Shown: positions 451 through 40,190 of the stretch, piece by piece
How the letters are laid out: the number at the start of each line of letters is the position of its first letter
Position numbering within the stretch: the first letter of the stretch is position 1
Source of the DNA: Trogon surrucura
Lineage: Eukaryota; Chordata; Aves; Trogoniformes; Trogonidae
Reading direction: 5' to 3'
Assembly: GCA_020746105.1 (NCBI GenBank)
Contig: CM036634.1
Location: 434,001 to 498,000 of the forward strand
DNA: 64,000 nt
The notes under the pieces: generated by a model
The model's database searches: none
Told to the model about the DNA's origin: nothing
Seen by the model: only the letters and a program-made list of their open reading frames with translations
Program-made: the position numbers and the translations under genes

Positions 451-3400
451 CTGTGGGCAGAGCCATCAGCCCCAGCACCGCCCGTATGACAACCCCACGA
501 CAGGGCTCCAGTGGAGATCCCCAGTCCCAATGGGACCCCTCGACCACAGTCCCACTGCCGCCCCCTCTCCAGCTCCTCCCAGTGCACCGGATCTCGGAGG
601 AGACCCCTCCGAAGGGGTGATGCCCCAGGGACAAAGCCAGGGCGAGGGGCAAGGGCATCTGCAGCCCCATCGCTGACTCTGGAAAGTCACCCCAGGATGA
701 GGCGGCACCCCAGAATCACCCCAGCAAACCCCAGGGCGAGGACGCGCGGGCGCCCGAGGGTACTCACTGGTGTCGCAGTTGGCGCCGAAGTAGCCGTGGC
801 GGCAGCGGCACTCGCCGGGCCTGACGCACACCTCGTTCTCCTTGCAGGTGAAGTTCCCCTCGCACACGGCTGGACGGACGGACAGAGGGCAGGCGTGAGC
901 ACGAGGGGTCGCTGGGCTCATCCCTGCTCTCCCAATGCCCCCACCCCCCTGGAGCAGGGGAAAGGGTGCACAGTGGCACCCTGGGTGCTGCCGAGCTGTG
1001 GCACCACAATTGTCCCGGCAAGCAGCCGGACAGCCTAGATGGGAGCCTCGCCAGGAAAATGCCACCAGCCTCCTGCCACCCTGGTCAGCCCCAGCCCTGC
1101 CTCCCAGCTTAGTCCCAGCCTTGTCATCAGCCTTCTGCCACCCAGCTCAACAGCATCACTGCCACCAGTCTCCTGCCACCAGCGCAGCCCTGTCCCTGCC
1201 ACCGGCTCAGTCAGCAGCAGTGACTCCTCGCCTGGCTCCGTATCGCTGGCCAAGGCAGGCGCCGGTGAAAAACAGGGACATGGGGCGGGGGGATTGCAGG
1301 CAGCCACAAGCACGGTCCCTCTGTCCCCTTCCCTGCACTCCTTACAGACCGGGGCGGTGTCACTGTCACCCCCATCACTGCCGCCCTTCCCATGCGGGCC
1401 ACCAGCCCCTAAAGGCCACCAGCCCCTCCCTCCTGACGAGGGGACCTTGCGCTGGGGCCAATGCAGGGAGGTGGGACGGGCAGTGCCGCAGGGTGGGCAG
1501 GCGCAGGAAGGTCCCTCGTGGCCCTGGACAAGGCTCCTCAGCCACCAGGAGAGGGAGAGCCACCACCCATCCCAGCCACCTTACCTGGCAGTTCTTAGAC
1601 CTACGGTGATGGATACTATAGAAACCCCTAAAATAGACAGATTACACAGGTTAGGAGCAGTGAGTCTAACGGTTAGAGCAGGTTGGGGAAGGCAAGGAGA
1701 TGGGGCCAGCTCGCTGGTGGGACCATCCTCCCCCCGCTGTCCTGGTAGACCCTGTCCTTCTCCTTCCCTGCTGGCACAGACCGCGTCCTGTTCCCGGCAC
1801 TGGCACCCCGCGCATGCAGCGAGCGGTTACGAGGGCGCATGCACGGTGGGTTAGTGGGTTACGTGGTCTTCGCAGGGCTCCTCCGGCTCTCCTGGGGCGA
1901 GGCGAGCCCCGCGGCCAGCCCAGACTGCATCCCCGAAACTGCCACCTGCATTGTGGCGGCAGTGCCAGGGGTAAGAGCAGCCGGGGCTTCATGCCAAGCA
2001 TCCACGCCGGGCTCGCGGCAGTCCCCGCTGAGAGCTGTAACGCCCCGCGGGGCTGCCCTGCCTGCAGGCTTGGTGGTCCCTGCCTGCTTCTCCCCAGCAG
2101 GACCACGATAGATGTGTGCCCAGTTTCATCGTCTTCTCCTCTGCCGGCAGCTCTGGCTCAGCACCCGGGAAATCTCTGAGGCCCACACCTGCAGCTGTGC
2201 CCTCCCTGGCCCCACGCTTCACCCTGAGGGTCACCTCGCTGTCCCTTGGGTCCCAGAGCAGCACCCCCAAATCCTCAGACCCAAAGCTGGCCAGCACGGA
2301 GAGAAACCCCCCAACCTGAGAGTGGGGGGTGATGCTCCTCGCAGAGGAGCCCACAGGGGACTGGGGCACCCCAGGGCGTCACTGTGGGGGCAGGGAGTGC
2401 CCCAGCACCCCAGCACTGGGGCTGAGCACCTGTTCCATCCACACGCTGCTGGCGTCGAGCACCGGAGGGAGGCAGGACAGCCTCCAGCATCCCTGGGGCA
2501 GAGATCCCCGAGACCGGGGTCCCCGCTGTGGGGTGGACATCAGGGCGGCTCCTGACAGCAGCGGTGATGCCAGGAGAGCCCAGCAAAGGCAGGAAGGGCA
2601 GCTGAGCAGTGCCCAGTGAAGGAAAAGGCCAGTGCTTACCTATCAAACACTCGCTTCCTTGTTGCCTCCATCCTGGGCAGCACACGAGCACCGAGGAGCT
2701 GCAGTGGGGGAAAAAAAAAAAGGCACCACAAATGGTTATGACCCTGAGAAAGTCCTGGTCTTACCCCAAAACCTGCTGGGAACACGGACACCAGGGAGAT
2801 GTCCCACTGCCAGTCAGCTGAACCCTGGCTGGGGGCTGCAGTTCCTCCGTCCCGCAGGGAGCACAGATCTGCTGGGGGGCTCCCACGGGCACCGGCTTGG
2901 CACGTCCCACAAACTAGCTGAGGTGACGCCGGGAGCGTCCCTCCCGTTAATCAGGAGTGGCGAAACAACCAGAGCCGCGTTTGCAACCACTATTGTCAAA
3001 AATAATCCCACAGACCCTCAAGAGCTGGGAAAAAAAGGGAAGGCTCGAAATGTCCCAGGGGAAACCTCGCTGCTCTGTCGAGGGACCCGCAGAGGGGGTC
3101 GAGGGGGCTCACGAAGCTGCAGCCCAGGCACAGGGAACATGCTCCCCGTGCCGTGACACTGCAGGGACCCCCGCGGCGGGGGAACCCTGCTCTCATCCCC
3201 GGGTGACCCGCACCGCCTGGTCCCTGCCGGCCACGGGAGCGACACCGGAGAGTTATAAATGGTCTGAGCGGATGCTGCAGTCAAGGAAAACTTCACCCAG
3301 GCCGGTCTGGCGGCGCAGCCTGGAATGCTTTTTCTTTTTTTTTTTTTTTCCTTCCCCTTTTCCTCTTTATATGTAACAAATGCAGAAGAGGAGGAGGAGA

Positions 3401-13423: not shown

Positions 13424-16400
13424 CTGGAGGGAGAGAGGCTGGTCAGGGAAGTACCAAAAAAGCCCAAGCAAAACATACAAACCATCCTACAGAGGGGGAA
13501 AAAAAATGGAATTCAAAAAGGGAGAATCAGCAAAAGGAAATCAAGGGAAAAGGGGAAAAAGGAAAAGTAAAAAGAAAAAAAAAAAACAGAAAAGGGAAAG
13601 GTGCCTGCCTCACCCCCCAGCTCCCCTGTGCCCCTGGGGCTGTGCCGAGGAGCGAGGGCTGGGGGGCAGGAGGGCTTGGCCAGCCTGGGCTGGGGGAGCA
13701 GTGGCTCATCCCTCCCGGCTCAACACCAGAGAGAGCCCAGGACCGCGCCAGGGGGAGCGGCCAGGGTCACCGGGAGCCCTGGGAACGTCGGCGGCCAGGG
13801 CCAGGCCAATTCAACCAGAAACATCAACTTAACACATTCTTCCAGCATGACTAGAGGAGTTGGCAGCCAAGACCTTGCTCGCGAGGGGAAGTCCAGGACA
13901 GAGCAGTGTCCACGTTGGACAACTGCCCGTTCCACCTCCTGCTGCTCTCCTGGCCTTGGGTCTCCGCTCTGGACACCAGTGTGGGCAGGGGGATCAGTCC
14001 CTGCCCTGAGCTGGGCTACCTAGACCCTTTCACATCCCTCAGGGGGCCTCCTGGGAGCTCTGCTCAGCTGCCTGAACCAGTGGAAGAGAAGAGGACAAGG
14101 TCACACAAGAGGCTGCTGCCACTGAGAGCCCGATGCCAGGTGTGCGCCTCCAGGAGAGCAAAGGGACACCCCCAGTCCAGAGAAGTACAAGCCGCGGTGA
14201 TGGCTGCCAGGATTGGTCTCTGCCCCACCTCGGAGAACCCTGATCTCAGCTCACAGTCCGAAGCAGGAATGTCCCTGCCCAGCCATCACGGTCTCATGGG
14301 GCCTCCAGAAAGCAGATGTGATTCTCCATCCTTATCTACATCCTCCCTAAAACCCACGCTGGGGTCACAGCACTCTGCACAGCTGGGGAAAAGGCAACAA
14401 GGCCCTGTCCTCAGCCAGTCCTGCTCTCCGACAGCCCCAGAGCCTGGCTCCATCCATCCTTCAGACCCCCCAGCAGTTGCTCAGGGGGACTCCAGGGGTT
14501 AAGGTAGGGCAGGAGCATATCTGCCAAGTCCCCCTTGCTGCCAGCACTCACCCAGGGGGAAGGTGATCTGGTCACACATGCCCAGCAGCTGCCCAAAGCA
14601 CACCTTCTTCTCCGAGGGATGGATCCCAAGCTCCATCATCCTGCAAGCAAGTCTTGGTGTTAGGGAATAGCGGAGACAATGCTGCACATCCTGCGACAGG
14701 AGTGGGGACCATCTCCAAGGACAAGTGTAGGGGCACGTGGCACTGGCCACATCCCAGATGGGTTATCAGATGCGAGGACTTGAGGGCTTTGTTTTTAAGA
14801 AGCCTCCAGGTACAGGAGCAGGGCCAGCTCTGCAGCCACCATGGCCTACTGTGCTGCACCCCAGCTTCAAGACCCAACTGAAGCCCTGAGCACCAGATGG
14901 GAGCAAGGATGCCACCCGGTGAGCACGGAGGAGACCTGACAAGCCACAGCACATCTCAGCACAGCTCTGGTGGTCCCCCGAGTCCCTGTCATATCCCGCC
15001 GCCTCCCCAGCACCCACCTGCGCAGAGTGAACTTCACCGTGTCCTCATTGTGAGATGCCACCATCACGTTGGCTTTCCGGCTGTGCTTGATCTCCTCCAG
15101 GATATAGTCCAGGCACCTGTAAGACAGCACAGGGCTCTGCGTTGAGGCTGCTCAAGCCCTCACCTGGTGGGGTGGGAGGGCAAGGTATGGCTGGAGCTGT
15201 CCCCTACTTGTGGTACATCTCATTGGTCTTCTCGTAGGTGGGGTTGATGGGATCCTCGTAGCCAATCTGGGCTGCCCTCTCCCGTTCCTGCTCCATGTAG
15301 GCACCACGGACCAGCTTGGTGCCAAAGTGCCAGCCCTCCCGGCGCGACAGTTCCACATCCACCGTCACGTTGTCATAAGCCTCCTGGGACCAGATGGAAG
15401 AGATGGCAGAAGGTCATCGCAGCAGCACCACCTCTGCCCTGCGCCCTCAGGCAGCCAGCCCCTGAGTTGAGCCATCGCCTCGCCGTGGCTTCAGGAGCCC
15501 AGGTCTCCATCCAGCAGGGCCTTCCCACCCAGCCTCCTGCTGGACCTCACCTTTAGGTAGCACTGGTAGGTGTTGAAGATGATGGCCCGATCCCTGTTGA
15601 AGCGGCGCTGCATCTCCAGGGTGAGGCGGCTGATGGCTGGCTGGAAGTAGCTCTGCTCTGCGTCCACCATCAGCCTCACGCCCTTCTCTGTGGCTCTCTG
15701 GGGGTTGAATGACACGCAGGTTGGGTTTGTCTCCCCCTCTACAGCTGTGCCCACGGCCAGCTTCCCCAGCCCCAGCACTCCCCTACCTTGGCAAGGACGT
15801 CCATCCGCTGCAGCATCCGCTTCATCTGCAGGTCCTCCTCCTCAGTGAAGCGCGAGAGCAGAGGTTCGAGCTGCCCCGTCTGAAACATGCACAGCTCGTG
15901 GCACCCTGCCTGTGGCCAGCCCTGCCCACACACCTCCGGGAGGAAGCCTGTCCCTGGGGCTGCTGCCCACCCCAGCACCACCAGGATGGCCACCCTGTCC
16001 GCTTTGCACAGCGCCACGGCCACCAACAAGTTACCGGGCAGGACCTGGGAGCAGCAGACCCACACCCTGCTCCCCTCCTTCAGAGACCTCCCTGTGGGGC
16101 CATGCCAAGGGTAGCAGAGACAGGTACCCACCTGCATGTTGGGGACGAGCAACAGCTTGGAGAGCTTGGTGCGGCTGTCAATCAGGCTGTTCCAGTCCAG
16201 CAGGTCCACCGTGCTGGAAGCAGAGGGGCAGGTCCATACTGGTGTCTTGCAGTGGGTTTCTATGAGCTCCCAGATGACACCAGCAAGCACTGGACATGGC
16301 ATGTGCCACCCTAACCTGTCTCACCTCCCCCACCCAAACCTCCTCTGTGCTTGGTCGCTGTGCTGAGCCAGTGCTGCCCTTTGGAGACCTCCCCTTGCTG

Positions 16401-19400
16401 CTTCCCGCCCCAGGACCAAGGTGAAGGTCCCCCAGCATCCCTGTCCGGCAGCACCCTGGGGTCACAGGCAGCTTACCCGCTCATGCCCAGGTTCTCGCCT
16501 GTGAACCAGTGCTGGCTCTCTGCCTTGGTGGCGATGCCGAGGTTGGCCAGGGCCTCCTGCCATCAAAAGGAGCATCAGTGCCAAGAGGTCTTACTGCTCC
16601 AGGCTCAGAGATGTCACAGGTCACGGCTGCTCCAGGACCTCTGTGGCCACCGGTCACATCCAGCCACACAGCCTCCTCCCCCAGACATCTCCAGCCTCAC
16701 CTGCAGCTTCTCTGCCTCCAGCTTCATCTCCAGCGCTGCCCGCCCAGCCTGGCCCTGCTCCGCGGCCATCTGCTGGAAGAACCTCCGCCACTTCACCAGC
16801 ACCTCTGAGAACTGCAGCTGTGGGCACAGAGCTCAAGGTGAGACCCCCGGGCTGGAGCCTCCTAACACATCAGGGTTTTGCAAGATCATACCCAGCCGAA
16901 GGCAGACTCTGACCCACCAAGGAGCTGGGCACCTTGGCCAAGCAGGGGCCAACCCCAGCAGTACACATCCCCAGGCCCTCATGGCGGGACCTTTAAGCTT
17001 CTAAGCTCTTCATGTCCTCAAAAGTTAAGGCAGGGTCTCCAGGGTTGTCTTAGGCACACAGGGGACAGCCTGTTGGTGCCTACTCCTCCCTGCCATCAGT
17101 GGAGATGCCACTGCAGCAAGCTCAACACCCTAAAGCACCGAGACCCAGACGTGCACCATGCATGGCCCTGGCTCTGCCCCACCTCACCCCGGTCACAGGC
17201 CTGGCACTCACCAGGAACTGAGGTCTGCCCAGCGCTGTCAGCTTGATGGCCGAGAAGCCGTTCTCTGAGCTGCCACCTGGATGGAGCCACAAACACAGAG
17301 CTTGCACGACAGGCTCTGCCGAAAGGGGTGCCTCCTGCCCAGCCAAGCCGTGGTGCTGGGCCGCAAGGTCCCCGCAGTCCCCAAGCACAGTGAGGCCGTT
17401 CAGGACAGGTGGAGCACTTACCCGAGGCATCAATGCAGCGGAGAAAAGTCTCCATGTGCTGGTCACACTTGGCCTCATCAGCATAGAAGTATGTGCGGGC
17501 ACTGATGACCCCACCGCGGCGATCCCCAAACCCCCGATGGGCTCGGTATTGCTTCTCTCTTTGTTCTGCTCCTGAGGTGGAAGAGGATGGAGATGGGCCA
17601 CACAGCCCTGCTGAGCTCCTACAAGCCTCCCCGGGAGCTTCTGCCGAGGGCGCAGGGGAAAGGGGCTCTGGCTTGGACCTCAAAACAGCCCCCAAGGGCT
17701 ACAACGTGCCCTGCCTGCTCTGCTGCCTGAGCAGAGGCTGAGCCTCTGCTGAGGAGCAGGGCTGACCAAGAACCAAGATGTTCCTCATCCAGCTTGTGTT
17801 TTGAGGCCCTGTGAACCAGGGTCCTGCCCCCACGCCAGGCCTGCAGTGCCCAGATCAGCTGGACCTTTAGGCTGCCTCCTGTCAGCAGGAGAGGCTGGGT
17901 CACTCACCTCCCATCTCCTTCTCGGCTGCAGAGGTGCAGGAGCTAAGAAGAGAAACAGGGAAGATAAGGGCCAGGTCAGCAACCCCCTGCAACCCTACAC
18001 CGGTGGCCAGGGCAGCTCTGAGGCTCCTCTGCCGTCAGCCTGGCACTGGACCCTGCTCTTCCCTCGCCATCCCATCGCCAACGGATCTAACGCTGCTCAG
18101 CATGAGCTCTGCTGGCAGGTCAGACACCCCAAATCCTCCCATGGAAGGCAACGAGGTTTCAACATCCATGCAAGGGTTACCTGGAGACCCTGAAGCAGCA
18201 CAGGGAAGATGACCCGTCCCAGGGTCCAGAGCTGTTCTCAAACAGCCCGCCTCCCAGCAAGGACAAGGTGAGCCCTGGTGGGGCTGGGCACCGTGTCTCC
18301 AGCCACACCAGCCCATGGTCCTCGCTGCCATGGCACCAAACCTCAACCCAACACCTCCCCACCTTGCAGGCACCAGCAGCCAGACCATGAAGCAAGGAGC
18401 TCCTCCAGACCCAGGGTGCATCAAGTCATAGGTTGCTCCGCTGCAGCTCAGCTGCCCCACGCTCCTCTGTGCCTTGGCATCAGCCAACAACTTACAGACA
18501 AGCTCTCAGCTTCAACTCCAGCTGACCTCAGATGTAATTTCAAGTCCAAGCTTTCTGCCACAGAGATAACAGGGCTCTGACAGCCTAAGGGGATGCCGGC
18601 CAAGTCATCAGATCCTCCTTGAGCTTGAGCAGCTAAGCCTTCTTTCCGACACCCTAAATCCAGCCCGTAGACCCAGGGTCTCGCCCAGGACCACTGCCAG
18701 CCCCTGAGGAGCAGCGCTGTGTGACAGCACAGCTATGTCTTCTCCAGGAGATCTCTGCCTTGGGGTCACTGCCCCAAAAGTGGCTGTGCCCAGGGAGGCT
18801 CACTGCGAGGCAAGCAGCAAAGCCACCCACCTGGAGCCAGAGGCCTCCGATGAGAGTGGAGAGGCACGTGGCATGGTCCCAGAACACGTTCTTCCGCATG
18901 GAAACCCTGTGACGGGGATTAGGGGCTGCTGGAAGCATAAACAAGCAGTGACAAACCCTTCTCTTCAGCTCCCTGGAGTCAGGAACAGCCCCGCATTGCT
19001 CAAAGCACAAAGTCTGGCGTGAAGCGGGGCAGGAGCAGCCAGAGCTCATGGGGAGCAGGAGGCACCGCGTCTAGCAGGCTCTGCTCTGTGATTTTGCTAC
19101 CCTAAGGACAGGTCAAGAAGCTTTCTGCCCCTGCATACAGAGGGTGGAGGAAAGGCAAGGAGGAGACACCACACGCCCAGGGATGGGACGCGACAGCAAA
19201 GCCCACAGTGGATGGAAGGCCCCTTTGGGGCAGACAGCGTGGCACAGTGGAAGGCAACTCTGAGGACATGTCGAGAGAGATGGGTCCCTTGGGCAGGTCC
19301 CAGCAGCAGCATGGTGGGACACCTCTGAATGCCAAAGCACACCTTGTACCCAGCCTCTGGCAGCAAAAGCCTCCTCTGACCTACCCAGGAGGACTGCACA

Positions 19401-22400
19401 GAACTCAGTTAGCAAACAGCACCCTTGAATTTGAAGTGGTTTGTGTTCCTGAAGACAAACACACCCTTTCCAGCAGCATTCCTGCTGCATGACTGCTCCG
19501 AGCCCTTCCTCCCCGAGGGGGGCATTCACAGCAGTGCCATGGCACTTGCTTCATTGTTCTGCATCGAGCAAAATAGAGGAAGCTCCTTCCAGCTGAAGAA
19601 ATAGCTCTTCCTGGATACCATCTGCTTTCTTTGCAACATTAGTCTTGGCCAGCAAAGCCATTCCTACACCAAGTGCCACTTAACCCAGCTTATACCTGGC
19701 CTCCCTTTCTGCGAACGAAAGGCAAGTCTCTTGGAGCAGGGCACATCTCCAGGCACTGCTCAATACTTCTGGCAGGCTGTAAGCAGAAAGGAGCCTCCTT
19801 GCAAGACACCATCAGGACCCGGGAGCACAAAGCAAGTCCTCCAAGTGCTGCAAAGCAGGGTGAGAAGACTTGATGCAGCCTGGTTGGTAATCCAGCTGAC
19901 ACAGCAGACTGGGGCTTTCACAAACTTTTTTTTTTTTTATCAGGCTCAGATAAAAAGTCTCAGGAGAAGCACAAAGCTCCCACTATCAGAAATAAGTAGG
20001 CAATAACCCATTTTGCCCAGGAGTTTACCAGGAGGGTGCCACAAGCACAGTATGTTTGCTTTGCTCATCAGCAAGTAGGTCTGGCAAAGGGGATGAGGGA
20101 ACACCAGGGAGAAGTTGTCCCTGAATTACCACATCCAAGGGAAAACTCATGGTCACATGGGGTCACAGAGCTTTGTAGAGTAGGGTTAATAGTTGGACTT
20201 GATGATCCCAAGGGTCTTTTCCAACCTGAACGATTCTATGGGTGATGCTTAAAACCCTGCAGGCAGGAATAAAGGCTCTTCACAAAACCAAAAATTCCTT
20301 TGAGCCTGCCCCAAGCATGAGCTGCCTGCACCACTGCAGGACCTCCTTGCAGGGCTTCAAGTCAAACAGAAACCACCCTGTGATCCCAGGGACCTGTAGC
20401 ACGCGGGCAGAGCCCTGGGCATGGGTGGCAGCAGCACCAGGAGCAGGAGGAGAAGGGGAGGTGGCAGCTCCGGGAAGTTCATTGGCCGGGCTGGGTCACA
20501 ATCCCACATTGGGACAGATACCAGGCGTCCACGCAAGAAATCTCCAGAGGAAGCAAAGTCCACGTGCCGCACGGCGGACTGACAGTACTCAGGGACAGGA
20601 TTGTCCTTTCCCACATCAGCACAACCCCAACTTGTCCCCGGCTTGGGATGCCCACGGACCAGCAGCGGTGCCAAGGGGACCACAACCACCTCCACCACAG
20701 GGGTGTGCTCCTTGTTTTGGGACAGAAGCCCATACCCAGTCACAGCACTGCCCCTCCACACCTCACCCAGAGCTGCGCTCATCCCAAAGCCTCCACCCCA
20801 CTGGGGCAGAGCAGCACCCGGGCTCTGCTTCCCCATAAGACACCTTTCTCCAGCTGTGTCACCTCGCCCTGGCAGCAGTCTGAACTCAGTGCACGGCTGA
20901 GGACTCCTGGGACAAGCCAGCAGAGCTCTGGATGCCAGCCCGGGCAGGGCAGGGCAGGTCCGAGCCTGCAGCAGGCAGGATAAACCGGTGCCCGCCCGCA
21001 TGGCCTTACGGCTCCCAACCGGAAAACCTGCGACAAGGAGCGGCTCGTGGGAGGGAAGAACACGGCTCCTGATTCCGGCAGCCACGAGCCCTGGTCCCCA
21101 GCTCAGCCCTCAGCCATGTGCAGCCCAGCTCGCACCATACTTGGCAGAAGCACCGGTAATTTGGGGGTTTTGCTCCTGAACAGAGCCAAGGAGGACCCAG
21201 AGCGACGCTTGGCATGGGCCAACCCTTCCGATGCCACCCAGGCCTCCCCTGGGCTTGGTCCCCACTCCGTGATCTCCAGGATGGCATTTCCCTCCCCCCC
21301 CCAATCCCCAATTGTTGGAGCAAATCCTGCTGGAGCTCAGGGAGGGTGGCATCGGGTTGAGGGCACAGGGGATGAGATCCAGCTTGTGGCTTTGCCAAGC
21401 ACAGGCAGAGCTCATCTGAGCAAGGCATCCCAAACATGACACCCCCAGATCTGCTCCGGGGGGGAATGCAGGGGGGACACGGGACCAGCACAGGCTCAGC
21501 CAGACCGAGGAGGACAGCAATGCCAGCTTGCCCAGGGCCAGCTAAGCCCCACGGGGATGCTGAGCACCGTGCCAGGACCTCCGAGCCGACAGGGATTCCC
21601 GGCAGCAGCGGCGAGGTGCAGGCGGGGGGGGGCGGTCCCCGATAAGCAGCACCTGCCTGGGGAGCAGAGATAAGGCCGGGAGGAGCCCCACAGCGCCGCG
21701 CTTTGCAAACCACCTCAGAAAGTGGCATTTTTAACGTCAAGTGACAAAGCGTGTGGCAGCCACACGGTGTCCGCAGGCGAGAGCGGGGACCAGGGGGGTG
21801 CGGTAGGACACCCCCTTGTCCTGCGTAGCGGGGGGACACACACCCACCGCTGCCACCAGTGACCGGGGGGTGCAGGGAAGCGGCCCCGCGACTGGGTGGC
21901 ACCAACTCACGAAACGGTGGAAACGCATGGGAGGGACGGAGGAGACGGGACCCCGGGGAGGAACGTGGGGCTGCGGAGGGCAGCACCCCGGGGGGGTGGG
22001 GGGGTGCACCCCAGGGTGGGGTGCACGGGAGCAGCACCGCCGGGGGGCAGCTCGTCCGCGTGTGCAGGGACAGAGGGGGTGCAGCGGTTCCTCGGGGGAA
22101 GCACCCGCGTGTGCGGAGGACACCGCCCCAGCGGCGAGGTGGGACCCCCGGGAAGTAGGGGGGGGGGGGGGGAAGGGAGCGCGCGGCGGGGGGCGGGGCC
22201 GTGACGCAGGGCAACTCCGTGTCCGCAGCCAATCGGAGCGAGGGGGCCGGGCGGGCGCAGCCAATGGCGGGGCGGCCAAGGCCGCGCCCCGCTGGGTCCC
22301 GCCGCCGCCGCCGCCGCCCGGGCCGGCCCCGCACTCACTCCATCTCCTTGCGCTCGGCCTCCTCGGCGCTCAGGTCCTCCTCCACGCTGTAATCCAGCAC

Positions 22401-23109
22401 GGCGCCCACGCCGAAGGCCTGGTTCCGCCGGATGAGCGGCTTGATGGCCTCCTGGTCCTCCCCGGCCACGAACTGCCCGTAGAAGGTCATCTTCATCAGC
22501 CGCTCGAACAGCGCCTGTCCCAGCACCCGCTGGCACAGCTTCAGCAGCTGCGGGATAACGGCGGCTCAGCAGCGCCCGGCCCGCTCCGGCAGACCCCCCC
22601 CCCAAACGAGCCACCCCCTTCCCCCCCACGCACACACTCGGCATCCCTGCGGAGCGGGAGAACCCCGCCTCAGCCCCGTCCCCCACAGGCCGGGCACCGG
22701 CAGGCCCCCCCCCCCGGTCCCCCACCCGGAGCAGGAACACACCGCGCCCCCACCCCCGCCCGGGACCGGCGCCGCCCCCGCCACCCACCTCCCGGTTGTG
22801 CTCCACCAGCGGCTCCACAGCGCACAGCCCCAGCACCAGCAGCCCCCGCAGCAGCTCGGCGCTGCTCTTGCTGCGGAACGCTTCCCGCGGGTCCCCGAAA
22901 TCCACGGGGGGCGGCGGCGGCGGCTGCTGCTGCTGTTTTTGTCCCCGCTCCGCACCCCGCGGCGGCGGGGCCGGTCGGGCCCCCCTGCCCGCAGGCGGCG
23001 GCGGAGCGGCCCCGCGGGGGGCGGCGGCGAGCGCGGAGCGGGGCCGACGCGGGGGGACGCCCAAGCGGGCGGCGGCGCGGAGCGCCCGAACCGAGCTCGC
23101 TGGAGCCAT
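13236..23109 (-). CDS. PRODH: PRODH, proline dehydrogenase 1, mitochondrial (complete, 14 coding exons)
   Basis: A flavoenzyme of the inner mitochondrial membrane that oxidises L-proline to delta-1-pyrroline-5-carboxylate and passes electrons to FAD and then the respiratory chain. The 14 exons are in consistent phase, all with GT and AG ends, and total 1851 nt = 616 residues, close to the 600 of human PRODH. Landmarks: an Arg/Ala-rich N-terminus suited to mitochondrial import; [30 protein letters not shown] with Lys250, matching the catalytic-site Lys of Put[14 protein letters not shown] with Asp396; KLVRGAYME with Arg459; and YLSRRAQEN with Arg579-Arg580, the substrate-carboxylate pair. No stop or frameshift is seen. 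PRODH2 is less likely, because the N-terminal and core segments follow PRODH1. Confidence 0.97.
13490..13612. repeat. Purine-rich tract in PRODH intron 13
   Basis: The plus strand is almost pure A/G (repeated GGGAAAA, AAAAAGG and AAAAGAAAAAA words). On the transcribed strand it is a long pyrimidine tract, about 70-190 nt before the exon 14 acceptor on the upstream side. Confidence 0.8.
14552..14640 (-). CDS. PRODH: PRODH exon 13
   Basis: 89 nt. Reads [20 protein letters not shown], then [18 protein letters not shown] is family specific. Acceptor CTTGCAG, donor GTGAGT. Confidence 0.95.
15018..15116 (-). CDS. PRODH: PRODH exon 12
   Basis: 99 nt. Reads [20 protein letters not shown], then [12 protein letters not shown]. 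The SHNEDT motif is conserved in the family. Acceptor CTTACAG, donor GTGGGT. Confidence 0.95.
15208..15383 (-). CDS. PRODH: PRODH exon 11
   Basis: 176 nt. Begins [20 protein letters not shown] and contains [14 protein letters not shown] and [18 protein letters not shown]. KLVRGAYxE is a hallmark of the family (FAD and substrate pocket). Donor GTAGGG. Confidence 0.95.
15551..15697 (-). CDS. PRODH: PRODH exon 10
   Basis: 147 nt, phase 0. Begins [20 protein letters not shown] and ends NTYQCYLK. Asp396 lies in the conserved VDAEQ motif of the barrel active site. Acceptor CCCCCAG, donor GTGAGG. Confidence 0.95.
15787..15879 (-). CDS. PRODH: PRODH exon 9
   Basis: 93 nt, phase 0. Reads [20 protein letters not shown], then [11 protein letters not shown]. 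Acceptor TGTTTCAG, donor GTAGGG. Confidence 0.95.
16132..16213 (-). CDS. PRODH: PRODH exon 8
   Basis: 82 nt. Reads [27 protein letters not shown], matching the human [18 protein letters not shown] block. Acceptor CTTCCAG, donor GTGGGT. Confidence 0.95.
16477..16556 (-). CDS. PRODH: PRODH exon 7
   Basis: 80 nt. Reads [26 protein letters not shown] plus 2 nt of Gly. Acceptor ATGGCAG, donor GTAAGC. Confidence 0.93.
16701..16817 (-). CDS. PRODH: PRODH exon 6
   Basis: 117 nt, phase 0 at both ends. Reads [20 protein letters not shown], then [19 protein letters not shown]. Human has LQFSEVLAKWRCFFHQMAVE at this place. Confidence 0.95.
17212..17276 (-). CDS. PRODH: PRODH exon 5 (catalytic Lys segment)
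   Basis: 65 nt. Reads [21 protein letters not shown]. Lys250 corresponds to the active-site Lys of bacterial PutA proline dehydrogenase (family knowledge). Acceptor CCATCCAG, donor GTGAGT. Confidence 0.95.
17422..17571 (-). CDS. PRODH: PRODH exon 4
   Basis: 150 nt. Reads [20 protein letters not shown], then [20 protein letters not shown] and TFLRCIDAS. Acceptor CACCTCAG, donor GTAAGT. Confidence 0.95.
17908..17942 (-). CDS. PRODH: PRODH exon 3 (35-nt microexon)
   Basis: Acceptor TTCTTAG, donor GTGAGT. Reads [11 protein letters not shown] with 1 nt at each side, which matches the human SCTSAAE segment and restores the frame between exons 2 and 4. Without it the frame would break. Confidence 0.88.
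17943..22338 (-). other. PRODH: PRODH intron 2
   Basis: The longest PRODH intron, 4.4 kb. Holds a T-run at 19927-19938, a short CR1 remnant near 20170-20245 and, from about 21.9 kb, the outer half of the PRODH CpG island. No other exon recognised. Confidence 0.75.
20170..20245 (+). mobile_element. Short CR1 LINE 3' end remnant
   Basis: GTTGGACTTGATGATCCCAA and TTTTCCAACCTGAACGATTC followed by TATGG are the terminal part of a CR1 element in plus orientation. Only the last 75 bp or so is recognisable, so this is an old, strongly 5'-truncated copy. Confidence 0.75.
22339..22547 (-). CDS. PRODH: PRODH exon 2
   Basis: 209 nt, acceptor ATCCCGCAG, donor GTGAGT. Encodes [20 protein letters not shown] to AEEAERKEM plus 2 nt that complete Asp with exon 3, where human has Glu. 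Strong family match. Confidence 0.95.
22789..23109 (-). CDS. PRODH: PRODH exon 1 (start, mitochondrial presequence)
   Basis: The ATG is at 23109-23107 (ACCCATGG context, G at +4). 107 codons, ending HNRE before donor GTGGGT. The first 50 residues are Arg, Ala and Pro rich with few acids, as expected for import. Residues 59-68 are [10 protein letters not shown], encoded by CAG and CCG/CCC runs. The conserved domain begins at about [20 protein letters not shown]. The frame is open further upstream, so a longer start cannot be excluded. Confidence 0.88.
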
Positions 23110-25129: not shown

Positions 25130-26640
25130 TCATAGAATCAAAGAAGGTTGGGGGTTGGAAGGGACCTCTAGAGATCATCCTGCCAGAGCAGGTTCACCCA
25201 GGGCACCCACACAGGAACGCGTCCAGGCGGGGTTTGAAAGTCTCCAGAGCAGGAGACTCCACACCCTCTCTGGGCAGCCTGGGCCAGGGCTCCAGCAGCC
25301 GCACAGCCAAGAAGTTTCTCCTCATGTTGAGGAGGCACTTCCCATGTTCTGACTTAAACCCATTATTTCTTGTTTTATTGCTGGGCACTACCAAAAAAGG
25401 TCTGCCACCTTCCTCTTGACCCCCACCCCTCAGATATTTCTACACGTTAATAAGGTCCCCTCTCAGCCGTCTCCTTCCAAGGCTGAACAGCCCCAATTCT
25501 CTCAGTCTCTCTTCACAGCAGAGATGGTCAAGTCCCTTATCACCCTTGTAGCCCTCCCTTAGATTCTCTCCAGTAGGTGCCTGTCTCTCTTGAACTGGGG
25601 AGCCCCAAACTGGACACAGGATTCCAGGTGTGGTCTCAGCAGGGCAGGGCAGAGCAGAGGGGAGGAGAACCTCCCCAGCCCTGCTGGACACACTTTTCTT
25701 AATGCCCCCCAGGATCCCATTGGCCTCTTGGCCACAAGGGCACATTGCTGTCCCAGAGACACTCACTCTCCACTGAGACTCCAAGGTCTTTCTCCACGCG
25801 GCTGCCTTCCAGCAGGACGTCCTCTGATCTGTCCTGGTGCCTGGAGTTATTCCTCCCCAGACGCAGGACTCTACACTTGTCCTGGTAGAACTCCATGAGG
25901 TTCCCCTTTGCCCAGCTCTCCAGCCTGTCCAGATCTCGTTGGGTGGCAGCACAGCCTGCCGGGGTGTCGGCCACCCCTCCCAGTTTCGTGCCATCAGTGA
26001 ACTTGCTGAGGGTGCACTCTGTCCCCTTGTCCAGGTCGTTGGTGAAGATATCGAACACAACTGGGCCCTGCACTGGTCCCTGGGAAACACCACTGGCCAC
26101 AGGCCTCCAACTTGACTCTGTGCCGCTGAGCACAACCCTCTGACCTCTGTTGCTGAGCCAGTTCACAATCCACCTCACGGTCCAATCATCTATCCCACAT
26201 TTCTTGAGTTTCCCTACGAGGATGTTACGGGGGACAGTGTCGAAAGCTTTACTGAAGTCAAGGTATATGACACCCACTGCTCTCCCTTCATCAGCCCATT
26301 CTGTCACGCCTTTGTCGAAGGATATCAGATTAGTCAGGCAAACTTTGCCCTTGGTAAATCCATGCTGGCTGTTCCTGATGACCTTCTTTTCTTCCAGTTG
26401 ATCAGAGATGGCTTCAGAATGAGCTGCTCCATCACCTTCCCAGGGCTGAAGGTGAGGCTGCCCGGCCTGTAGTTGCCAGGGTCCTCCTTCTTGCCCTTTT
26501 TGAAGACTGGAGTGACACTGGCTTTCTTCCAGTCCTCAGGCACCTCTCCAGTCCCCCAGGATGTTTCAAAGATGATGGAGAGCGGCTCAGCCACAACATC
26601 AGCCAACTCTCTCAGCACACGTGGATGGCATCTGTTAGTC
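25130..26640 (-). mobile_element. CR1 LINE, 5'-truncated, with reverse transcriptase remains
   Basis: About 1.5 kb in minus orientation, 3' end at 25130 (GATTCTATGA on the minus strand). The translated minus strand shows CR1 ORF2: NYRPGSLTFSPGKVMEQLIL, LDFSKAFDTVP, RQ-type finger residues, then FTDGTKLGG where active CR1 has FADDTKLGG. The catalytic Asp pair is therefore altered and a frame change separates the two main pieces near 26415. The full element is normally over 4 kb, so the endonuclease and ORF1 are missing. Inactive. Confidence 0.93.
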
Positions 26641-26985: not shown

Positions 26986-27062
26986 CTCGTGATGTCACAG
27001 TGGGCTCGTGATGTGACGAGCTGTGCGCCAGCGGTTGGCTGAGTCATTCGCTGAGTGACTGG
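26986..27062 (+). promoter_or_regulatory. Candidate promoter with CRE-like and AP-1-like motifs
   Basis: TGATGTCA at 26990-26997 and TGATGTGA at 27009-27016 resemble CRE sites. TGAGTCA at 27040-27046 is a perfect AP-1 site, and TGAGTGA follows at 27052-27058. The four motifs fall within 70 bp, about 180 bp before the first ATG of the repeat frame. No TATA box. Motif clustering is seen; function is inferred. Confidence 0.4.
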
Positions 27063-27230
27063 GCCCTCGAGCGGCAGCGTGGCTGGCAGGCAGAGGACCC
27101 GCAGCGAGGCGAGGGGTTGCCCACCGTGGTGTTGGCAGCCAAAGAGGCGATTGGCAGGTGCGTTGGACGAGGCAGTTGCTGGTGCAAGGTGGTGACGGCC
27201 TTGGTTCCTGTAGCTGCTGCTGGAGTGGAG

Positions 27231-28120
27231 CCCATGCAGGTGGATCCACCTGCAGATGTTGAAGATCCCATGGATGTGGATCCACCTGCTGATCTGGAGG
27301 AGCCCATGGACGTGGATCCACCTGCTGATGTGGAGGAGCCCATGGACGTGGATCCACCTACAGATGTGGAGGAGCCCATGGACGTGGATCCACCAGCAGA
27401 TGTAGAAGAGCTCATGGATGTGGATCCACCTGCTGATGTAGAAGAGCCCATGGACGTGGATCCACCTGCTGATGTGGAGGAGCCCATGGACGTGGATCCA
27501 CCTGCTGATGTGGAGGAGCCCATGGATGTGGATCCACCTACAGATGTGGAGGAGCCAATGGACGTGGATCCACCAGCAGATGTAGAAGAGCTCATGGATG
27601 TGGATCCACCTGCTGATCTGGAGGACCCCATGGACGTGGATCCACCTGCTGATCTGGAGGACCCCACGGATGTGGATCCACCTGCTGATCTGGAGGATCC
27701 CACGGATGTGGATCCACCTGCTGATGTAGGAGAGCCCATGGACTTGGATCCACCTGCTGATGTGGAGGAGCCCATGGACGTGGATCCACCGGCAGATGTC
27801 GAAGAGCCCATGGACGTAGATCCACCTGCTGATGTGGAGGAGCCCATGGACGTGGATCCACCTACAGATGTGGAGGAGCCCATGGACGTGGATCCACCCA
27901 CAGATGTGGAGGAGCCCATGGACGTGGATCCACCCGCTGATGTGGAGGAGCCCATGGACGTGGATCCACCTGCTGATGTGGAGGAGCCCATGGATGTGGA
28001 TCCACCCGCAGATGTGGAGGAGCCCATGGACGTGGATCCACCAGCAGATGTAGAAGAGCCAATGGATGTGGATCCACCTGGTGATTAGGTGCAGCTGATG
28101 GATGTGGATCCTCCCGGATC
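27231..28120. repeat. 36-bp tandem array (about 24.5 units) with 180-bp higher-order copies
   Basis: The unit is GATCCACCTGCTGATGTGGA followed by GGAGCCCATGGACGTG, and nearly every unit has a BamHI-type GGATCC. Units match closely and show no length changes. The blocks at 27361-27420 and 27541-27600 are almost identical and lie five units (180 bp) apart, showing a segmental duplication inside the array. A last diverged unit follows the TAG, at 28089-28120. Confidence 0.95.
27234..28088 (+). CDS. Unrecognised acidic tandem-repeat protein (12-residue unit PMDVDPPADVEE)
   Basis: From the first ATG this frame gives 284 residues that are almost entirely a 12-residue repeat, PMDVDPPADVEE, with 23 full units and a 9-residue end before TAG. 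Variants are few: Ala to Thr, Val to Leu, Pro to Leu, Met to Thr. The frame is open back to 27012 with no ATG, so an upstream exon could feed it. The protein would be very acidic, rich in Asp, Glu and Pro, without Cys or membrane segments, and probably disordered. I do not recognise a family. CRE/AP-1 motifs upstream and AATAAA at 28767 fit a short, unspliced transcription unit. Caution: a 36-bp array keeps several frames open on both strands, so coding status is unproven. Confidence 0.4.
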   Translation: MQVDPPADVEDPMDVDPPADLEEPMDVDPPADVEEPMDVDPPTDVEEPMDVDPPADVEELMDVDPPADVEEPMDVDPPADVEEPMDVDPPADVEEPMDVDPPTDVEEPMDVDPPADVEELMDVDPPADLEDPMDVDPPADLEDPTDVDPPADLEDPTDVDPPADVGEPMDLDPPADVEEPMDVDPPADVEEPMDVDPPADVEEPMDVDPPTDVEEPMDVDPPTDVEEPMDVDPPADVEEPMDVDPPADVEEPMDVDPPADVEEPMDVDPPADVEEPMDVDPPGD

Positions 28121-28766
28121 ATGGCTCCCCTGGCAGCTCCACTTCCCGCCAGGACCTCTCCACTCTTCCCCAGGAGCCCAGCGGCGGTGCTGGAGCAGCC
28201 CCAAGCCAGCGCACTATCGTGCTGCAGCGGGCGCTAGCTTGGAGGCCTGCCCTTCGCGCCAGGCTGCCCGCAGGCTCCCCTGCTCCATCTCCCCGGCACG
28301 GAGGACAATTTGCTGACGGCCGCGGGTGTCGGGAGCCCTCCCTTCCCGCCATCCACCCTCTCCCTACCCCCAACCCTTCTGACGGAATGCCATCTCCTCC
28401 GCTCTGTGCCCGAGGAAGAGGGGAAGAGACAAAGTGGCTCCCGCCGGGCTGCTGTGCCGGGAGGAGTCCCCTCAGAGGGCTGCCGAGGACCCTGGGGCCT
28501 GGAGGTGGATTTCACCGGCCTGAAGGCGAGAAGGCTGCTGGACTGGAGGTTGGAGGGGAAGCCAGACCCTCGGTGTCAGCGCACGAGGAGGGGAAGACAG
28601 AGCCTCGGTGGCAGTGTATGAAGAGCAGCGACTGATCAGAACGAGAGGTCGGAGAGGCAGCCGTTGCCCTGGAGAAGCCGAAGACTGCAGGGTTGTCAGG
28701 GGAAGGGCTGCTCGGCAGCACTAAGGCCCCTTCTCACTGCTCCATCGGTCCTTCTCAAGTTTGAGC
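28121..28766 (+). other. Probable 3' part of the repeat-gene transcription unit
   Basis: GC-rich DNA between the array and AATAAA. After the TAG the same frame runs on to 28316 (VQLMDVDPPGSW, then a Pro/Arg-rich stretch), and a second frame is open from 28102 to 28635. Neither shows a known domain. Treated here as untranslated. Confidence 0.35.
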
Positions 28767-28772
28767 AATAAA
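28767..28772 (+). terminator. AATAAA poly(A) signal candidate
   Basis: GAGCAATAAAAAGTTC lies about 680 nt after the stop codon of the tandem-repeat frame and about 60 nt before a CR1 begins. It is correctly oriented to end a plus-strand transcript. Confidence 0.4.
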
Positions 28773-32406: not shown

Positions 32407-32706
32407 TGCAAATAGAATTGAAAATAGATTGACTTTTCTGGGGTCATTTCACCTCTCTGCACTCAGCCTCCCACACTGGGGGCAAGTGACTTGCCGGGTC
32501 CTGGAGATGGAGAGGAGGTTGCTCGAGGGCTCTGTGGTTCTCCTGTCCTCCCACCAGCACCGTGACCCCTCTGGACAAGGGCCAGGCCTTTTGGGAAAAT
32601 TAAGGAGAAAAAGGGAAAAGTAACTGAGGCTGCTGTGCCTGCCTCCTTCCCTGGCCAGCATAAGTGCAGGCATGCTGGCCATCCGTCATCCGACAGACTG
32701 GTGGAC

Positions 32707-32799
32707 TCCTTCTCCTTCTCCTTCTCCTTCTCCTTCTCCTTCTCCTTCTCCTTCTCCTTCTCCTTCTCCTTCTCCTTCTCCTTCTCCTTCTCCTTCTCC
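32707..32799. repeat. (CTTCTC)n hexanucleotide microsatellite
   Basis: About 15 near-perfect hexamer units. On either strand it yields spurious Lys-Glu or Ser-Phe frames. Likely length-variable between individuals. Confidence 0.95.
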
Positions 32800-39169: not shown

Positions 39170-40190
39170 ATCACACTCACTGCTGCCTCCTCCTCCACTA
39201 GAGCGATTACCTCGGCATAGAGGGAAATTAGATGGCCCCAACACGATTCGTTCCTCATAAAACTGCACTGGCTGAGTTTTATTCTTTATTTTTATCACAT
39301 TATTGTCCTCTAGGTGTTTACAAATGGATCGTCCAATAATTCGTTCCAAAATTTTGCAGGGAACTGGAGACAGGCTGGCTGATCTGTTACTCCCCAACTT
39401 TTTCTTTTTCTTTTTCTTTTTCTTTTTCTTTTTCTTTTTCTTTTTCTTTTTCTTTTTCTTTTTCTTTTTCTTTTTCTTTTTCTTTTTCTTTTTCTTTTTC
39501 TTTTTCTTTTTCTTTTCCTTTTCCTTTTCCTTTTCCTTTCCTTTTTTTTTTTTTAAACAGATAGTCTTCTGCACTTCTCTGGCTTCTGAGGCTTCCAAAT
39601 TTGTAACAAACTACTGCTAATTGTTCAGGGATTGCTAACATTCTTCAGGGTAATTTTTCTTGACCCTTGATTACATTGAGCTTATCTTGGCATCCTGTAA
39701 CTGCTTCCTTCCTGACACTGACCTCAGCTCGTATCCCCTCAATAACGACAATATTCTAGATATTGGTTACAGCCTTATATTGTGAAAACCATGGCAAGGA
39801 AGATGTCATCTACTTCCCTGTGTAACTTCTTTGCTTCTTCTCTCTGCCACAAAACACAACTGCCGACCCTCTTTCCTCTCCATTACGCTTTCAGCGTATT
39901 TTGGGAACCTTTTTTTTGCTTTTTATGCTTCTCGCAGACTGTAGTTCACTTGGCTCCTTAGCCTTTCTCGTTCTACCCCCCATGCGCTTGAGCTTTCCCT
40001 TTACACTCATCCTTATACCCTCATTCCCATTTTTATAGGATTCCTTTTTGATTTTCAGGACACTAAAGTGCTCCTGATGCAGCAATATTGGTCTTTTACT
40101 GTTGTCCTGTGGTTCCCCTGCATCAGAATTTCAACTGCTGTGCCCCTAATATACTGTTTTTCAGTAACTACTCATGGTCCTGTATTTCTT
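39170..40190 (-). mobile_element. Old CR1/L3-like LINE, minus orientation, split by a microsatellite
   Basis: The left part, 39170-39395, reads on the minus strand as reverse-transcriptase remains (PVPCKILERIIGRSICKHLE, then DNNVI). The right part, 39560-40190, carries words I know from the ancient amniote CR1/L3 LINE: TATAGGATTCCTTTTTGATT, CTCCTGATGCAGCAATATTG and CCTTAGCCTTTCTCGTTCT. It is far more diverged than the other CR1 copies, so much older. No open frame. Confidence 0.65.
39399..39554. repeat. (CTTTTT)n microsatellite inside the old LINE
   Basis: About 25 hexamer units, changing to CTTTTC near the right end and finishing in a T-run. Gives spurious poly-Lys/Glu or poly-Phe frames. 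Its purity shows it is much younger than the LINE around it. Confidence 0.95.

Follow-up and report, generated by a model that had tools for sequence, protein, structure and literature searches.

The 64,000-nucleotide stretch analysed here (the window) spans positions 434001 to 498000 of contig C21 in the 1.166-Gb, 164-contig assembly of Trogon surrucura. The original prediction placed in it a gene-like unit built from a 36-bp tandem repeat and suggested that this might encode a lineage-specific acidic protein. The unit and its neighbours comprise the following features.

466-1062, minus strand: scavenger-receptor class F fragment, whose only PDB match is SCARF1 (E 1.4e-6)
15200-23100, minus strand: PRODH exons, with Pro_dh over the Pfam cut-off near 15.2-15.7 kb
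25699-26307, minus strand: LINE reverse transcriptase fragment, adjoining the unit and also found beside the sister copy L011
26990-26998, plus strand: CRE-like promoter core TGATGTCAC, with TGTCAC unchanged across all 9 family rows aligned
27040-27046, plus strand: AP-1-like TGAGTCA in the leader, found in C21 and C67 rows
27079-27081, plus strand: GTG in place of the family start ATG, from comparison with relatives
27082-27233, plus strand: basic N-part remnant, with a net 13-nt deficit compared with relatives and out of the array frame
27227-28111, plus strand: 36-bp tandem array (expanded acidic linker), 24.6 copies by TRF
27234-28088, plus strand: open frame from the first ATG past the promoter block, 284 codons plus TAG
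28086-28088, plus strand: TAG before the family C-part, also present in L011
28089-28316, plus strand: C-part remnant (MDVDPPGSWLPWQLHFPPGPLHS...), in frame behind the TAG
28767-28772, plus strand: AATAAA, in a context common to the C21 and C67 copies examined except L015

Exon 1 of PRODH, recognised by eye, lies near 23 kb, and the LINE beside the unit is one that we take to be CR1. Pfam scans of the surroundings covered 13-22 kb and 21-26.5 kb on the minus strand, 22-28.3 kb on the plus strand (two of three frames), and 31-36 kb and 36-64 kb (six frames), the last of which gave nothing at E 0.05. TRF also reports a perfect (CTCCTT)15.7 tract at 32706-32799, which probably causes a sub-threshold Pfam match to TrAA12, and a (CTTTTT)26 tract at 39398-39554.

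The array itself is real, with a period of 36, 88% matches and 0% indels by TRF, bearing out the claims of 23 full acidic units and of no indels other than multiples of three. All 23 full units, 18 of them distinct, lie in one frame from the ATG at 27234 up to the TAG at 28086-28088. The open frame had been put at 359 codons; it is indeed open from stop to stop (358 codons, from the stop at 27009 to the TAG), but only 284 codons follow the first ATG, and the predicted end at 28316 corresponds to the same frame read past the TAG, which extends to about 28316. The 284-codon product is made only of D, P, V, E, M, A, L, T, G and Q, contains no K, R, H, S, C, F, W, Y, N or I, has a calculated charge of about -116 and is predicted to be without structure (mean pLDDT 49.8, single sequence). 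Since the frame encodes no K or R, the tryptic fragments proposed as a peptide check cannot arise from it.

Most differences among the units fall on third codon positions, as originally noted: 46 of 61 minor cells in the unit alignment do so, as do 14 of the 21 distinct changes, where 7 are expected. The excess has a p value of 0.0002-0.0004 under three substitution models and of 0.0035 by column permutation, and the permutation value stays at 0.002-0.009 whichever single unit is dropped. The absence of stops, likewise offered as an argument, is uninformative, as only 0.2-0.3 are expected by chance in the array frame. The third-position bias as an argument for coding is genuine but does not suffice by itself, because the antisense frame (MGSSTSAGGSTS repeats, 27044-28027, minus strand) has its third positions at the same sites and explains the changes just as well (lnL -47.0 versus -46.6 for sense). 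That this antisense frame is the coding one is nevertheless hardly credible: 13 of its 21 distinct changes are synonymous, with 6.4 expected, but in each of 14 family members, which had been selected for an open sense frame, the matching frame is interrupted by one or more stops, and a protein search with the antisense frame gave 10 matches, the best being a Gly/Ser/Thr-rich protein. These stops identify the plus strand as the sense strand. Thus, the strand is settled only by family comparison, since the array alone fits both.

That family is large. A 48-aa repeat query found at least 137 matching places in the same genome (150 of 260 candidates scored). With a complete C2 member as query there were at least 150 matches (150 of 434 scored), and with a C21-type query at least 189 (150 of 257 scored). 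Merging the rows of the three queries gives at least 201 distinct related loci on 15 contigs, a count made without five second pieces of split loci from the C2-member query, without C21-type-query rows that were unlisted or lay outside C21, C67, C8 and C15, and without most rows of the 48-aa query; weak further matches occur on C1 and C9. The proposal of a unique acidic protein thus falls to at least 201 relatives in the same genome, among which the window copy is a defective one. Many loci are clustered with regular spacing, and they number at least 80 on C7, 34 on C21, 14 on C67 and 42 on C2, where clusters of 10, 8, 20 and 3 occur at a spacing of 2076 bp. In a comparison of four clusters, adjacent units showed 99.2-99.8% identity; tandem copies so alike do not test openness. 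Stops inside the match occur in 15 of 145 loci taken from the C2-member query. Loci on C12, C43 and C74 and at 20.9, 21.6 and 31.0 Mb on C7 show two TAG codons per match and are perhaps a truncated subfamily.

The avian Z carries DMRT1, DMRT3 and DMRT2 in neighbouring positions. Three adjoining DM domains at 71.92-72.02 Mb therefore identify C67 as Z and make part of the family Z-linked. The family loci on this contig lie at 33.5-39.7 Mb, apart from the DM domains at 71.9-72.0 Mb. The MHM repeat of chicken adjoins DMRT1; we set it apart from the family by position on C67.

Complete members are intronless open frames of about 103 to 430 codons with a common layout, in which a basic N-part is followed by an acidic linker containing between two and five units of the MDVDPP type and a mostly basic C-part, with charges across 14 members of +7 to +25, -8 to -22 and -1 to +10, respectively. 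The N-terminus reads MAGRKRTHRG... on C2 and C7, MAGRQRTRSE... on C21 and C67, and MFGLKMSERS... on C13, C15 and the like, and the linker is followed by a GWVPWQ or GWWLPWQ stretch and then a tail in C2, C7, C21 and C67 members. The window array carries the acidic unit M[DQE]VDPPADVEEP in frame, as in this MDVDPP family. In C7 members, a basic module roughly 48 residues long (RRSPPRRRQAEREKVCERRERPLPEFNYAAEMGRSNRQSPLVAAS...) recurs as well, spaced 144 and 291 bp apart in L034, and open-frame lengths of 147, 196, 244, 341, 389 and 438 codons are seen. Differing in this manner, the frame lengths and module spacings indicate that two modules, one acidic and one basic, vary by whole codons. L034, L023 and L025 (C7, 15-22 Mb) carry the basic module in one to several copies as a second coding minisatellite. 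Low-copy diverged members with a TATAAATA box, namely L019, L020 and L033 (C15, C13) and L031 (C1 at 95.55 Mb), are possibly nearer the ancestral form.

Selection on these proteins is concentrated in the linker, where pN/pS is 0.06-0.40 in all 17 listed pairs of equal length and p is below 0.05 in 15 of them, the pairs being non-independent and those with under four changes unlisted. The non-repeat parts give pN/pS of 0.22-1.04, and constraint there is weak, as judged by values near 1 in several pairs and by p below 0.01 in only 1 of 11 chosen pairs. Over the whole protein, all listed pairs for which dN/dS is defined stay below 1, an outcome that the linker drives. This makes MDVDPP the conserved core motif, flanked by ends that evolve fast, as is common among germline proteins. 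In intact members, units of whole codons lie within a frame under selection, as in a coding minisatellite. A stop-free 36-bp unit stays open easily, which would suit a non-coding minisatellite open by chance and may describe the window array at present, but the family frame, the linker constraint and the whole-codon expansions show a coding origin and make this reading very improbable. A minisatellite that was non-coding from the start is rejected on the linker constraint and the family structure.

The window copy keeps the promoter block with TGATGTCAC and the shared leader, of which about 20 nt are missing. The CRE-like motif predicted before the frame is present family-wide, 89-90 bp before the start ATG on C2, C7, C21, C24 and C67 at every locus where core and ATG lie no more than 300 bp apart. 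For C13 and C15 loci this distance is 108 bp, and TATAAATA starts 43 bp past the core; L013, L017 and L030 are without the ATG pattern, and L021 and L031 are without the exact core. The predicted AP-1-like motif exists at 27040 and in C21 and C67 leaders but does not extend to the whole family, being absent from the C2, C7, C13, C15 and C8 rows of the aligned leaders. The AATAAA foreseen after the frame lies at 28767; C2 and C7 copies have another AATAAA context, and C13 and C15 copies have ATTAAA. As predicted, the unit is gene-like and intronless and lies on the plus strand; it has a poly(A) signal as well as a promoter-like block, and its repeat derives from coding sequence that was under selection. 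An internal exon between the acceptor-like AG at 27212 and the donor-like GT at 28081 was rejected, as relatives keep an uninterrupted frame with the same leader.

The window copy descends from the family and is not an intact member. Where relatives have a start ATG and an in-frame basic N-part, it has GTG at 27079 and a frameshift, and the second family ATG reads ACG at 27195; where they have a stop-free in-frame C-part, it has the TAG at 28086, behind which the C-part has lost 10 nt near 28221 relative to L011. This sister copy, at 171 kb on C21, has 10 full units against 23 in the window copy, and past its TAG the family C-part is still readable. Both copies lack the same 20 nt or so of leader, and both have the GTG start (found in the start position of L017 on C67 as well), the ACG for the next ATG, the net 13-nt loss in the N-part and the TAG. 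They are 94.6% identical over 2.5 kb, the neighbouring LINE included. From the shared defects and this identity across the LINE, the two appear to form a segmental pair that already had its defects when it split; gene conversion between them is an alternative.

This history bears on the third-position signal. Among the 21 variants in the array, 11 are found in other members' units too (8 of these synonymous, 3 not), whereas the remaining 10 are new in the lineage of the window copy (3 synonymous, 7 not, with about 2.5 synonymous expected); the contrast, which rests on 31 sampled units of other members, has a Fisher p of 0.086. As the shared variants carry the bias and the new ones have no synonymous excess, it is explained by inheritance, and the signal comes mostly from constrained ancestors. 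Selection on the array may nevertheless continue, given that the 284-codon frame is still open and that the Fisher test reaches only p 0.086. Such selection is what we would expect if the window copy were a young functional gene, kept as a 284-residue polyanion translated from the first ATG. Besides the open frame and the third-position excess, this reading can draw on the first ATG past the promoter block being that at 27234 (0 ATG in 220 nt, shuffle P 0.12), on the retained promoter core and poly(A) signal, and on the sister L011 being open too over its 10 units. However, few stops are expected anyway, the changes new to the lineage are mostly non-synonymous, part of the leader is lost, and the C-part kept decaying, so we regard a functional gene as unlikely. 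A pseudogene is the most likely state of the window copy. More generally, a third-position bias in a repeat array can be a legacy of intact relatives and yet look like selection acting on that array.

Four 144-nt pieces, two per strand, gave folds superior to those of shuffled sequences (z -2.35 to -3.73). We rejected RNA structure as an explanation, since such folding is to be expected where the palindrome GTGGATCCAC recurs (22 copies). Rfam gave 0 matches at gathering scores.

Pfam has no family for the window frame and none at cut-off in eight members, six of which are without any match; the other two have sub-threshold matches, to DCA16 (21.2 bits, cut-off 27) and PhiKZ_gp35 (13.8, cut-off 35). 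In the PDB, one member has no match and another a marginal one (E 0.097). The only protein match of the window frame is P0001, a protein with the acidic stretch PMDVAEPMDV, which we take as chance similarity; the database includes bird proteins, and the 7991 scored candidates were of about 156-497 aa, a range in which shorter family members could not appear. Among viral and prokaryote contigs (collections that are not bird genomes), the repeat pattern was found 0 times, and at the protein level 0 of 31 viral candidates were confirmed. In the literature, judged by titles and abstract starts, there was nothing on the 12-residue unit and nothing that we recognised as this family.

Taken together, we consider it probable that the unit belongs, as a degenerate copy, to a large intronless gene family that has been tandemly amplified in this bird genome. 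Whole gene units were amplified, and modules inside the units expanded. In the lineage of the window copy and L011, the start codon, the N-part frame and the link to the C-part were lost, and the arrays now contain 23 and 10 full units, respectively. The window copy would now be a pseudogene, its array drifting in the manner of a minisatellite; at the most, it would be transcribed and yield a polyanion from internal ATGs. Intact members may be germline-expressed, mostly disordered nuclear proteins, made from a CRE-type promoter and acting on chromatin or RNA via their opposed charged segments, in which case the number of charged modules could tune binding.

Beyond this, we tentatively propose, as a possibility somewhat short of even, a bird variable-charge family that arose independently of VCX/Y and has at least 200 Z-linked and autosomal copies driven by a CRE-type promoter. 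Its acidic (36-bp) and basic (about 144-bp) coding minisatellites would vary, with the acidic motif under strong purifying selection and the ends evolving fast, making it a candidate for germline chromatin conflict (e.g., Z-linked drive and suppression), of which the window array would be a fossil. If expressed, it would constitute a large avian gene family covered by no Pfam model and not found in our literature searches, and a bird counterpart to mammalian ampliconic variable-charge genes, with which to test whether germline conflict yields such families where females are heterogametic.

Several known systems resemble parts of this picture. Like the zinc-finger array of PRDM9, the family has whole-codon tandem units that change number in frame; however, the acidic unit is predicted to be disordered with no folded domain, and the window array grew in a copy without the flanking coding parts. 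Like the ampliconic testis families of sex chromosomes, it has tandem or palindromic, near-identical copies, but it lies mostly on autosomal contigs. The VCX repeat is acidic as well. With VCX/VCY, the variable-charge family of the human X and Y, intact members share a charged N-part plus a variable number of short repeats. VCX/VCY are reported to be small charged proteins with a conserved N-part, multi-copy and partly sex-linked, which the present family resembles, and to be nuclear and male-germ-cell specific (PMC7900521, PMC6790999). The repeat has 10 residues in VCX/VCY and 12 here, where the loci, at least 201 and mostly on autosomal contigs, also have an extra variable basic module and a different promoter. 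VCX/VCY would be the nearest likeness, as an analogy of architecture.
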